Shown: piece by piece, positions 2,748-19,136 of the stretch | Numbering within the stretch: position 1 is the first letter of the stretch | Layout of the letters: each line of letters begins with the position of its first letter | NCBI GenBank assembly: GCA_029247365.1 | Contig: JAQWLJ010000029.1 | Span: 1-49,063, forward strand | From: Acidimicrobiales bacterium | GTDB taxonomy: Bacteria > Actinomycetota > Acidimicrobiia > Acidimicrobiales > Aldehydirespiratoraceae | Direction: 5' to 3' | DNA: 49,063 nt | Translations under genes and position numbers: made by a program | The notes under the pieces: model-generated | The model's input: only the letters and a program-made list of their open reading frames with translations | Databases searched by the model: none | Told to the model about the DNA's origin: nothing

Positions 2748-3139
2748 TCGTCGCCCTCGCTGGCTTCGTCGTCACTCTCGTCGGCCGCTGGGGCCTCGGC
2801 CTCTGCGGCAGCGTCAGCTTCCTTTTCGAGCTGCTTCTTGGACTTGCGGGGCGCACGCTCGGGAACCGCGGCATCGACGGCGTCGCCGGTGTGCTCGGTC
2901 CAGGCGCCGGAGATCTTCAGGAGCTTCTCCACCCGATCGGTCGGCTGGGCGCCCTTGGAGAGCCAGTGAACGGCCCGCTCGTTGTCGATGTTGATAACCG
3001 ACGGGTCCTGGCGGGGCTCATAGGTCCCGATGATCTCGATAAAACGGCCGTTGCGCGGGGAACGCGAATCGGCGGCGACGACACGGTAGGTGGGCTGCTT
3101 TTTCTTGCCCATCCGCATTAGGCGGAGCTTGACGGCCAT
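2744..3139 (-). CDS. rpsP: 30S ribosomal protein S16 with long acidic tail
   Basis: The first roughly 85 residues are a standard S16: [19 protein letters not shown], then [18 protein letters not shown] and [19 protein letters not shown]. The protein then runs on to 131 residues with a lysine stretch followed by an Ala/Glu/Asp tail. Extended tails are known in some actinobacterial S16 proteins and are probably disordered. The ATG at 3139 fits the family start exactly. A purine-rich AGAAGAAGAG lies about 10 nt upstream. Confidence 0.96.
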
Positions 3140-3386
3140 GAGGTGAATCTCTTCTTCTGGGATCGCTGGGTGAAACTTCGCTCGGGCGCGACGGAGGCCC
3201 GGAACAACTCGCCCATTCAATCTGGACGAGGGCGCCGAACCAACCTGCGAGCAAGGACTAACGAGGACCATGACTCAGGAAGGGGTCCGGTCCGCTACAC
3301 CTCAACTCGGCGAGTTCTGTGTGACTTCCGGCATGGAACACACTGCAGAGACCCGAAGCGACCCTGGCGGGCTCGCGCCGGTCTAC

Positions 3387-4862
3387 CTAACCCCGGCCGA
3401 GGAAGTCAGAGAGGTCGGGGGGCCCGTCGCTGTCGAGACCAGGCAAGGTGAGGGCGTCTTTCGGAATCTTCGCCGGGCCCTTCTCGGTGACCCGCCCGCC
3501 GGAGGCCTTGCGGCGCCCACTCTTCTGCTTGCCTTTCTTGCCCTTGCCCTTGCGGTTCGATGTGTTCTGCTTCTTGGTGCCGAACCCGGCGAACTGCTTC
3601 ATCATCGTGCGCATCTGCCCGAACTGATCGAGCAACTGCTTGACGTCGCTCGATTGTGTGCCAGAGCCAGCGGCTATCCGGCTACGGCGACTGCCGTCGA
3701 TCATCTCGGGCTTGGCCCGTTCCTGGGGTGTCATCGAACGGATGATGCCTTCGAGGCGGGCAATGTGGCGATCATCGATCTCGACGTCGCGGGCTTCCTT
3801 CGGGATGCCCGGCATCATCCCCATCAGGTTGCCGATGGGGCCCATCTTCTTGATCTGCTGCATTTGCTCGAGGAAGTCCTCGAGCGTGAACGTGCCCTCC
3901 ATGAGACGGGCGGCAGCAGCCTCGGCCTCTTCCTGCTCAAAGACTTCTTCGGCCTTCTCGATGAGGGTCTCGACATCGCCCATGCCGAGGATGCGGCTGG
4001 CGAGACGATCGGGGTGGAACGTGTCGAAGTCGTCGAGTTTCTCACCGGTCGAGGCGAAGGCGATTGGCTTGCCGACGACCTCCTTGACTGACAGCGCAGC
4101 GCCACCGCGGGCGTCGCCGTCAAGCTTGGTGATGATGACACCGTCGAGTCCGAGGGTCTCGTTGAACGCTTGGGCCGTGTTGACTGCGTCCTGACCGGTC
4201 ATGGCGTCGATGACCAGGAATGTGTAGTCGGGGCTGACTGCGTCGCTGATCTGGCGGACCTGCCCCATCAATTCTTCGTCGATCGCAAGACGCCCCGCCG
4301 TATCGACGAGGACGACGTCTCGGCCGGTGCGCTCGGCTTCCTTGATCGCCTTGCTGGCGACATCGACCGGGTCGGTCGGCTCGGAGAAGACCGGCACGCC
4401 GATCTGGCTGCCAAGGGTGCGGAGCTGTTCGACCGCAGCCGGACGTTGAAGGTCGGCACCGACGAGCAGCGGATTGCGACCCTGCCGTTTGAACCACTGC
4501 GCGAGCTTGCCGGCGTTGGTGGTCTTACCAGCACCCTGCAGGCCGGCCATGAGCACGACCGTGGGCGGCTTGGAGGCGTAGGTGATCTTCATCGCCTCGC
4601 CACCGAGGCTCGTCGTCAGCTCCTCAAGAACGATCTTGACGACCTGCTGGGCCGGGTTGAGCGCCTTGCTCAGCTCTTCACCAACGGCTCGCTCACGGAT
4701 ACGACCGACCATGTTCTTGGCGACGTCGAGGTTGACGTCGGCCTCGAGAAGCGCCAGCCGGATCTCGCGCAAGACGTCATCGACATCGTCCTCATTGAGC
4801 TTTCCACGGCCGCGGATGCGGCTGAAGATCCCGTCGAACCGGTCGGAGAGTGTCTCGAACAT
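3387..4862 (-). CDS. ffh: Signal recognition particle protein Ffh (SRP54)
   Basis: Ffh is the GTPase of the signal recognition particle and delivers signal-anchor proteins to FtsY. The 491-residue protein has the helical N domain (1-90), the G domain with P-loop GLQGAGKTT near residue 109, DTAGRLAIDEEL, TKLDGDARGG, and a methionine-rich M domain (GNLMGMMPGIPKE, MTPQERAKPEMI, QFGQMRTMMKQF). A Lys/Arg/Gly-rich tail follows. A TACCCT hexamer lies 9 nt before the ATG. The SRP RNA gene is not in the window. FtsY is encoded nearby on the same strand. Confidence 0.97.
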   Translation of the reverse strand: MFETLSDRFDGIFSRIRGRGKLNEDDVDDVLREIRLALLEADVNLDVAKNMVGRIRERAVGEELSKALNPAQQVVKIVLEELTTSLGGEAMKITYASKPPTVVLMAGLQGAGKTTNAGKLAQWFKRQGRNPLLVGADLQRPAAVEQLRTLGSQIGVPVFSEPTDPVDVASKAIKEAERTGRDVVLVDTAGRLAIDEELMGQVRQISDAVSPDYTFLVIDAMTGQDAVNTAQAFNETLGLDGVIITKLDGDARGGAALSVKEVVGKPIAFASTGEKLDDFDTFHPDRLASRILGMGDVETLIEKAEEVFEQEEAEAAAARLMEGTFTLEDFLEQMQQIKKMGPIGNLMGMMPGIPKEARDVEIDDRHIARLEGIIRSMTPQERAKPEMIDGSRRSRIAAGSGTQSSDVKQLLDQFGQMRTMMKQFAGFGTKKQNTSNRKGKGKKGKQKSGRRKASGGRVTEKGPAKIPKDALTLPGLDSDGPPDLSDFLGRG

Positions 4863-17585: not shown

Positions 17586-17711
17586 CGTTGGGTCCAAAGT
17601 GGGAGGGAACCACCTCATACCTCTCTATCGGCGCAGACCTGCAGGACGTGAAACAGAATCGTTGGTCAACTCACCGGTTCATGACGTTGGTCACCTCGAC
17701 CGACCCGCCGG

Positions 17712-17717
17712 TACGGT
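17712..17717 (+). promoter_or_regulatory. Candidate leaderless -10 (TACGGT) of the F420 oxidoreductase
   Basis: TACGGT ends 7 nt before the ATG at 17725, with no Shine-Dalgarno sequence between. Confidence 0.5.
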
Positions 17718-17724
17718 GCCGTCC

Positions 17725-18735
17725 ATGAAGATCGATGTCAGCTTGGGCGGGGACCTGACGGCTGCAGCCGAACGAGGGCGATCGCTGCTCGCCGCCGAGC
17801 TCGATGGCGCTTTCACATTCGAGGGGAACAGCGATGTGTTCTTCCCCCTCGCCGCTGCTGCAGGCTGTGGGCTCGACCTCTACACCAACGTGGCAATCGC
17901 GTTCCCTCGCTCGCCAATGCATCTCGCTTACCAGGCGTGGGACCTGCAGCGGGCGTCTGGCGGGCGGTTCGCGCTCGGGTTGGGCACCCAGGTCAAAGCC
18001 CATATCGAGCGCCGCTACTCGTCGACGTGGGACCGCCCCGTGGGTCGGTTCGTCGACATGATCAAAGCCACGAAGGCGATCTGGGCGAACTGGACCGACG
18101 ACACACCGCTTGACCACGTGAGCGACTTCCACCGCTTCGACCTGATGGTTCCGACCTTCGTACCACCCCCACTCGGCGACGACATCGCTCCCCCACCGAT
18201 CTGGGCTGGAGCACTCGGGCCCCAGATGACGAAGGCGATGGCTCGCCATGCCGACGGCATCATCATCCACCCGTTCAACACGGGCTCGTTCCTCGACGCC
18301 ATCACGATGCCGCTCATAGACGAAGGCCTCACCGCCGGCGGACGAGACCGCTCGTCGCTCACGCTCAACGTCGGCTGTATCTGCTCACCGAGTGTCACCG
18401 ACGAAGAGTTCGAGCGCTCATCGAAGTCGATGCGCAACAACCTCGCGTTCTACGCATCGACACCTGCCTACCGGGTCACACTCGACCACCACGGCCTTGG
18501 GGACATCCAGCCCAAGCTCAAGGAGATGACCAAGACCGGCCGCTGGGCCGAGATGGCGTCGGTACTCGATGATGAGCTGCTCGATCTCCTCGCAATACGT
18601 GGCACGCCGGTGCAGTGCGCGGCTCGACTCCACAAGGAGTACGGCGCCTTCGCCGACCGGATGTCACTCACAACCCACAACGCCTCTGACCAGGCGCTCG
18701 GTCAGATGAAAGCGGCGCTCGTCGCGATCAGCTGA
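17725..18735 (+). CDS. F420-dependent luciferase-like oxidoreductase (MSMEG_2256/TIGR03617-like)
   Basis: This 336-residue TIM-barrel protein starts MKIDVSLGGDL and carries FTFEGNSDVFFPLA, the AWDLQRASGGRFALGLGTQVKAHIERR block and PPPIWAGALGPQM, typical of one F420-dependent LLM subfamily. It likely uses reduced F420 in lipid or steroid breakdown; the substrate is unknown. It is divergent from the TetR/DUF35/Ltp genes, as Rv3520c is from Rv3521. Its stop overlaps the end of the convergent ArsC gene within the 8-bp palindrome TCAGCTGA. Confidence 0.88.
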   Translation: MKIDVSLGGDLTAAAERGRSLLAAELDGAFTFEGNSDVFFPLAAAAGCGLDLYTNVAIAFPRSPMHLAYQAWDLQRASGGRFALGLGTQVKAHIERRYSSTWDRPVGRFVDMIKATKAIWANWTDDTPLDHVSDFHRFDLMVPTFVPPPLGDDIAPPPIWAGALGPQMTKAMARHADGIIIHPFNTGSFLDAITMPLIDEGLTAGGRDRSSLTLNVGCICSPSVTDEEFERSSKSMRNNLAFYASTPAYRVTLDHHGLGDIQPKLKEMTKTGRWAEMASVLDDELLDLLAIRGTPVQCAARLHKEYGAFADRMSLTTHNASDQALGQMKAALVAIS

Positions 18736-19096
18736 AGATCTCGGCGAGCCGGTCCTTCGCCTTCACGCCATCGAGAGGCCGCCCGATGATCGCCTTCTTG
18801 GTGGTGACGACAATGGGCCGCTGCAGCAGCCGCGGGTAGCGCACCAGTACCTCGACCACTGCGTCGACGTTGCCGACATAGTCGTCTTCGTTGAGTTCGA
18901 GCTTTTTGAACTGGCTGTCCTTGCGAACGAGATTCTCGACGGGATCCTCGAGCTTGGCGATCAGCGCGCGCAGCGTCGCCTCGTCGGGCGGGTTCTTCGT
19001 GTAACGGATCTCTTCGAACTCGACACCGTTCTCCGTGGCGACCGCCACGGCGTTCTGAGACGAGTTTCAATGCGGGTTGTGATAGATCGCAGTCAT
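18728..19096 (-). CDS. ArsC-family reductase with in-frame TGA (probable selenocysteine) at the catalytic Cys
   Basis: The 122-codon frame reads MTAIYHNPH, then TGA (19067-19069), then NSSQNAVAV and a complete ArsC-family body (ENGVEFEEIRYTKNPPDEATLR, VRKDSQFKKL, QRPIVV, IIGRP). In ArsC proteins the motif is HNPxC(S/N)xS, so the TGA takes the exact place of the nucleophilic Cys. A ribosome site (AAGGTGG) precedes the ATG at 19096, so translation should begin before the TGA. Directly after the TGA is a hairpin with a GGUC loop (see 19017-19066), the form of a bacterial SECIS. Reading the TGA as selenocysteine is therefore likely. Otherwise the protein would start at the later GTG (19048) without its active site. 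ArsC-type proteins reduce arsenate or act as glutaredoxin-like reductases; the real substrate is unknown. A Cys-to-stop mutation is the alternative, and a decayed gene does lie next door. Confidence 0.8.
19017..19066 (-). promoter_or_regulatory. Candidate bacterial SECIS element
   Basis: Starting on the base after the TGA, AACUCG (19066-19061) can pair with CGAGUU (19022-19017). Inside, CCGUGGC (19050-19044) pairs perfectly with GCCACGG (19039-19033) around the tetraloop GGUC (19043-19040). The loop begins 24 nt after the TGA, within the usual bacterial SECIS distance. Its sequence equals the SelB-contacting GGUC loop of E. coli fdhF. Confidence 0.75.
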
Positions 19097-19136
19097 CGTG
19101 ACGCCACCTTAGAGCACCAAGCCGGCGTCAGGCTTT

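Follow-up and report, generated by a model that had tools for sequence, protein, structure and literature searches.

Selenocysteine (Sec) forms of the arsenate reductase ArsC, with a UxxS motif, have been in print since 2005. They were described from environmental DNA: the Sargasso Sea yielded 14 sequences (PMC1088965), and 77 UxxS and 42 UxxC Sec arsenate reductase sequences followed in GOS (PMC2398784); the preliminary description of the DNA treated here had mentioned such genes from marine metagenomes, and these two papers agree with it. Two reviews, of 2022 and 2026 (PMC9312934, PMC13188914), also list Sec arsenate reductase, and the accessible part of the second describes the functions of such selenoproteins as largely uncharacterised. 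The arsenate reductase-like UxxC selenoprotein of model NF041106 (PMC13188914) and Spx belong to the same ArsC/Spx superfamily. A term search of the available text of PMC1794560 gave no mention of 'arsenate reductase', and one of PMC5029168 none of 'arsenate'. No report on selenoproteins of Acidimicrobiia was found in the open-access literature searched.

Among cysteine enzymes, the reference is the ArsC of E. coli and R773. R773 ArsC belongs to the ars operon; in E. coli ArsC, three arginines bind arsenate or arsenite, and the adduct formed on Cys12 is resolved with glutathione. For Sec insertion, the reference is the SECIS element of E. coli fdhF, an apical stem with a GGUC loop placed in the low twenties of nucleotides after the UGA.

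The gene considered here lies in a stretch of 49,063 nt from an Acidimicrobiales bacterium (contig JAQWLJ010000029.1), which is called the window below. It is a further member of the UxxS group, with unusually complete evidence, and we put at about 95% the probability that it encodes a selenoprotein with the ArsC (glutaredoxin-type arsenate reductase) fold; Sec insertion itself and catalysis are what we infer. As far as the available portions of the two environmental surveys describe them, the published proteins (ArsC 1, pfam03960/COG1393/TIGR00014) share with this one the family, the UxxS motif and a bacterial SECIS right after the UGA. They are environmental sequences, whereas here the host genome and its machinery are known, together with the RNA-level conservation and the distribution of Sec and Cys forms across the order.

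Table 1. Features of the Sec-ArsC locus and of the paralogue loci (window positions, except for L136 and L137)
Feature	Position	Strand	Details
Sec-ArsC gene	18728..19096	-	122 residues, Sec = residue 10; ATG 19096-19094, terminal TGA 18730-18728
In-frame UGA at catalytic Cys position (HNPH-U-NSS, UxxS)	19067..19069	-	alignment to solved ArsC chains
Table 11 ORF, 106 aa	18728-19048	-	GTG start at 19048
SECIS apical hairpin	19033..19050	-	7-bp stem 19050-19044/19039-19033; loop GGUC 19043-19040
TAAGGT, TANNNT (-10-like) box	19106..19111	-	ends 9 nt before ATG; no Shine-Dalgarno-like letters outside box
Second Sec paralogue, relatives G089 and G161	L136 about 2832-3180; L137 about 3710-4055	+	~2-3 kb from first gene

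An in-frame UGA at the catalytic position

The frame reads from its ATG through nine codons (MTAIYHNPH), then TGA, then 112 sense codons up to the terminal TGA (Table 1), just as the preliminary description had it when it gave the ATG at 19096, nine codons, a TGA and more than 110 codons of ArsC-family protein. It had also placed the TGA on the catalytic Cys of the HNPxC motif, and alignment with solved ArsC chains does put it on that residue of E. coli-type ArsC; in PDB, arsenate reductases are the best matches by sequence. When the TGA is translated as Cys, the protein scores 54 bits against Pfam ArsC (pfam03960; cut-off 24), and UxxS is present as UNSS. Its relatives NF041106 and Spx carry UxxC or CxxC instead; NF041106 gave no match at E 0.001, and the Spx models stayed far below cut-off. 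Within its own genome, the gene is the sole match to its own protein at E 0.001. Under translation table 11, the locus yields just the 106-aa ORF, which starts at an internal GTG and lacks the active site, as had been anticipated. The ORF of a luciferase-like monooxygenase (17599-18735, forward strand) converges on the gene and overlaps it by eight bases (18728-18735).

Of the 37 genomes of the same family, 35 gave a match, and each of these 35 has TGA as its catalytic codon (30 read first and 5 later), which excludes a misread TGC, the error that the preliminary description had named as fatal to its reading, and rules out sequencing error. When the genome itself and 60 relatives were searched, 53 of the 61 matched: a single in-frame TGA lay inside the best match in 40, 12 had no stop, and one partial match had a TAG. 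Across the order, 188 of 298 genomes matched, and among the matches listed (down to E 1.4e-28) all had one TGA except those of G136 and G233. A sample spanning the phylum gave matches in 66 of 396 genomes, 9 of which had a match containing one TGA. In a tree of 92 rows from this and related genomes, the catalytic codon is TGA in 73 and TGC in 19. Every homologue without TGA whose codon was read (22/22, i.e. 19 + 3) has TGC at the site and never Trp, so that comparison with Cys homologues sets the TGA exactly where they carry TGC. Locus L072 also has the TGA and a GGUC hairpin and is probably the same gene as that of G013. A search of viral_contigs found no relative, and a viral origin was set aside.

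Were the UGA an ordinary stop, the locus would be a pseudogene or would encode the shorter protein started at the internal GTG, and that ORF does exist. However, the residues preceding the TGA are conserved in the Sec rows (H6 in 72/73, N7 in 70/73), as is the TGA itself; on either side of it amino acids are kept while synonymous positions vary elsewhere, which rejects a pseudogene, and a 106-aa product would miss H6, residue 10 and S13. The conservation of the GTG has another cause, since this codon belongs to the frozen hairpin described below. We therefore consider termination at this UGA very improbable. A general reassignment of UGA in the lineage, for instance to Trp and without any Sec, would likewise account for its being read through in this gene. 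It is already contradicted, and its chances are negligible: most of the genes also end with UGA (54 of the 70 distinct Sec-form genes), the homologues replace TGA by TGC and not by a Trp codon, and the Sec machinery is present. Sec, inserted at residue 10, is the reading that we retain.

A second Sec ArsC-like paralogue, with the motif YHNP-x-U-GKSRGAL and 37% identity to the window protein, was noticed in two relatives (Table 1). In G130, G236 and G311 the contig with the first match holds another TGA-bearing one, and G032 (L139) has a related paralogue with UxxA.

A hairpin selected as RNA

Downstream of the TGA, at a spacing of 23 nt, begins the GGUC loop of a hairpin. The preliminary description had drawn a structure starting at the base after the TGA: its 7-bp upper stem and GGUC loop stand, but its lower stem is absent from the consensus of 50 relatives. 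The hairpin thus resembles the fdhF SECIS in its apical stem, loop and position and differs from it in that a lower stem is not conserved.

Taken alone, the fold is no proof, because its stability is only mildly above that of shuffled sequences (z -1.75, 8/200) and unexceptional among synonymous recodings of the same peptide, 49/200 of which were at least as stable as the native hairpin (the codon pool contained the hairpin codons too). Nor does fold energy separate Sec from Cys genes to any great extent, the mean minimum-free-energy z being -1.20 in 70 Sec genes versus -0.86 in 19 Cys genes.

Selection nevertheless acts on the hairpin as RNA. Over its six codons, mean synonymous diversity is 0.03, against 0.54 at 38 comparison codons (Mann-Whitney p 5e-5), which lie outside the hairpin, stand for amino acids of four- or six-fold degeneracy and are at least 70% conserved in amino acid; no other six-codon window of the gene is as low (32 distinct genes from 53 loci; duplicates and sequence with N left out). 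Sorting the 70 distinct Sec sequences by eye put 50 into a group with this hairpin and 12 into one with a different hairpin, with 8 left over. In the first group, pairing in the 7-bp stem is kept in 98.6% of 350 cells, with one G-C pair changed to U-A in 19/50 sequences and another G-C pair changed to A-U in 3. Covariation among close relatives, which the preliminary description had named as a check, is indeed seen: none of 500 shuffles reached the score of 0.262, and slid controls stayed at or below 0.027. The numbers of pairs and of pair types showing change did not stand out from the shuffles (154 and 89 of 500). Between clades, the protein changes from AVAVAT to ALAVAE jointly with a compensatory change in the stem. 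The GGUC loop is present in 50/50 sequences of the hairpin group, i.e. 50/70 of all distinct Sec sequences, and in 0/19 Cys homologues.

Of the 20/70 sequences without this type of hairpin, the 12 others share a different consensus fold with little covariation (11 pairs, one of them changed on both sides), in which the loop, CGUGC in most, comes about 18 nt after the UGA. The alignment of that fold holds for L091, L094, L095, L098, L101, L102, L104-L106 and L108 and is poorer for L086 and L093, where some pairs are broken. Given the position of this second loop, the register of the SECIS seems to shift from clade to clade, suggesting SECIS turnover.

When an RNA model of the hairpin was run against the genome (150 of 6010 first-look candidates scored), it matched the Sec-ArsC gene and, weakly, one other place (E 0.54, contig C15), which was set aside as the stretch inspected held no TGA-interrupted ArsC-like frame. 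At that sensitivity, the other selenoprotein genes of the genome, selD included, are therefore without this SECIS sequence.

Selenocysteine machinery and the Sec/Cys distribution

The genome (3.1 Mb, 98% complete) holds all four of the genes that the preliminary description proposed to look for. The tRNA-Sec scores 64 bits and has the anticodon UCA; SelA, SelB and SelD score 374, 289 and 360 bits, and all are over their family cut-offs, so that the absence of tRNA-Sec and SelB, seen in advance as the outcome that would speak against Sec, does not apply. On contig C51, SelA adjoins SelB, and tRNA-Sec is about 16 kb away. The active site of SelD reads GAG-U-GCK across an in-frame TGA, hence selD is itself a selenoprotein gene; a Sec-containing SelD is a common arrangement. 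Since single searches were also positive in some of 14 control genomes (over cut-off: tRNA-Sec in 5, SelA in 1, SelB in 2, SelD in 2), the verdict rests on the four genes jointly. A weak match to a cobalamin riboswitch lies near selD (L018, 195-263, reverse strand; 32.2 bits, gathering threshold 31.5).

The co-occurrence of the Sec form with SelA was surveyed in 80 genomes chosen by hand from the relatives, order and phylum searches. SelA is over cut-off in 55/56 Sec-form genomes versus 7/22 Cys-form genomes (Fisher p 6e-10, related genomes treated as independent), and in 1 of the 2 genomes without a match. The one Sec-form genome without a SelA match, G202, is 83% complete; 15/22 Cys-form genomes have no SelA match, while G233 and six others have the Cys form despite SelA. 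A swap within a single genus is provided by G261 (L091), with Sec and SelA, and G136 (L092), which has TGC and neither a GGUC loop nor a SelA match. The latter falls inside an 11-row clade that is otherwise Sec (SH-aLRT 98); its exact place is unsure because of a long branch and odd composition, and the tree is a quick one (121 columns, 36 of 89 inner branches open). According to the accessible part of a sponge binning study, SelA and SelB occur in most symbiont bins, from various phyla.

Fold, active site and the question of arsenate

The predicted model, built from 13 sequences, has a mean pLDDT of 83, and arsenate reductases make up its seven best Foldseek matches (E 2e-9 to 2e-7). It has the fold of E. 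coli/R773 ArsC (1i9d and 1jzw, with TM-scores by query length of 0.76 and 0.79; also 3rdw) at about 31-33% identity. The active-site His, Ser and three Arg are common to both, and the Cys there is a Sec here. R58, R93 and R106 occur in 92/92 rows, S13 and H6 in 91/92; by the alignment with solved ArsC chains, the three arginines correspond to R60, R94 and R107 of R773 ArsC. The Ser at U+3 is kept in 72/73 Sec rows. The best NCBIfam match is TIGR00014, the glutaredoxin-dependent arsenate reductase equivalog, and the residues of that type (His, Cys/Sec, Ser and three presumably anion-binding Arg) are all present.

An assignment as 'ArsC-type' is thus supported by sequence, predicted fold and invariant arginines, and to that extent the preliminary description, which had proposed an ArsC-type enzyme, holds; this support does not extend to arsenate, which is a candidate for the natural, physiological substrate. 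The protein might instead be a Sec enzyme other than an arsenate reductase, i.e. a selenol thiol-disulfide or peroxide/oxyanion reductase with the ArsC fold, perhaps with a housekeeping task, to which we give somewhat less than even odds. The match to TIGR00014 fits such a reading in that its 88 bits are under the cut-off of 106, and so does residue 14, which is Arg or Lys in 18/19 Cys rows (Arg in 16) and more variable in the 73 Sec rows (Lys 25, Arg 12, Ser 11, Thr 9, Gln 7). The surroundings of the gene point the same way. Unlike R773 ArsC, it has no recognised ars neighbour, either among the ten window ORFs around it or among ten representatives from relatives (mechanical ORFs, clustered by single linkage). 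The neighbours are luciferase-like monooxygenases, TetR, acyl-CoA dehydrogenase and others in the window and AMP-binding, Rieske and other proteins in relatives; the neighbourhood varies between relatives and indicates no function. Neither Acr3 nor ArsB was found in the genome; Acr3 is over cut-off in 10/56 Sec-form and 11/22 Cys-form genomes, ArsB in 0/56 and 4/22. On the other side, the exporters covered were these two, with ArsP, ArsJ, ArsM and others outside the search, and the invariant arginines that align with the arsenate- or arsenite-binding ones of E. coli ArsC, the U+3 Ser and the nearest solved folds all favour an arsenate reductase.

A promoter-like box close to the start

The -10-like box upstream of the ATG (Table 1) is not peculiar to the window. 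In 36/72 Sec genes, a TANNNT box ends 6-10 nt ahead of the start, versus 3% in shuffled sequences and 1% at random positions, and it nearly excludes a Shine-Dalgarno sequence: 35 genes have the box only, 34 the Shine-Dalgarno only, 1 both and 2 neither (Shine-Dalgarno-like letters inside the box masked, one duplicate dropped, starts chosen by rule). It is not special to Sec, being present in 14/18 Cys genes (a further one, lacking a start, was dropped). Within the genus of the window, 8/9 genes are of the box class, with the box ending 7-9 nt upstream, and that of G008 is of the Shine-Dalgarno class. Such a pattern is that of leaderless actinobacterial transcripts. Half of the Sec-ArsC genes thus look leaderless or nearly so, and the transcript of the window gene is probably near-leaderless, with a leader of a few bases possible.

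A broader proposition has two parts. In most of the genus, the Sec-ArsC mRNA would be leaderless or have a few leader bases, with the UGA about 30 nt from its 5' end and no Shine-Dalgarno, so that leaderless initiation would precede SelB/SECIS decoding; and the enzyme, retained in selenoprotein form across many families of an order where both searched arsenite exporters are mostly absent, would have a conserved housekeeping substrate other than arsenate. That both parts hold together seems to us rather unlikely.

Discussion

The use of Sec by this lineage in an ArsC-type enzyme, first proposed from the letters of the window, is now supported by the conservation of the UGA, the machinery, the covariation of the hairpin and the frozen synonymous sites. 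In the mechanism that we infer from the anatomy of the hairpin and the machinery genes, SelB with Sec-tRNA(Sec) would bind the hairpin, with its loop 23 nt past the UGA, and Sec would be inserted at residue 10. The selenolate, lying near R58, R93 and R106, would then attack an oxyanion or an oxidised substrate, and the selenenyl adduct would be resolved by a low-molecular-weight thiol or a redoxin.

With this gene, Sec-ArsC, first known from environmental sequences, can be assigned to a host lineage that has the whole machinery, its SECIS is well bounded, and there are natural swaps between Sec and Cys, one of them within a genus whose Cys genome gave no SelA match. What Sec adds to an ArsC enzyme thereby becomes directly testable.
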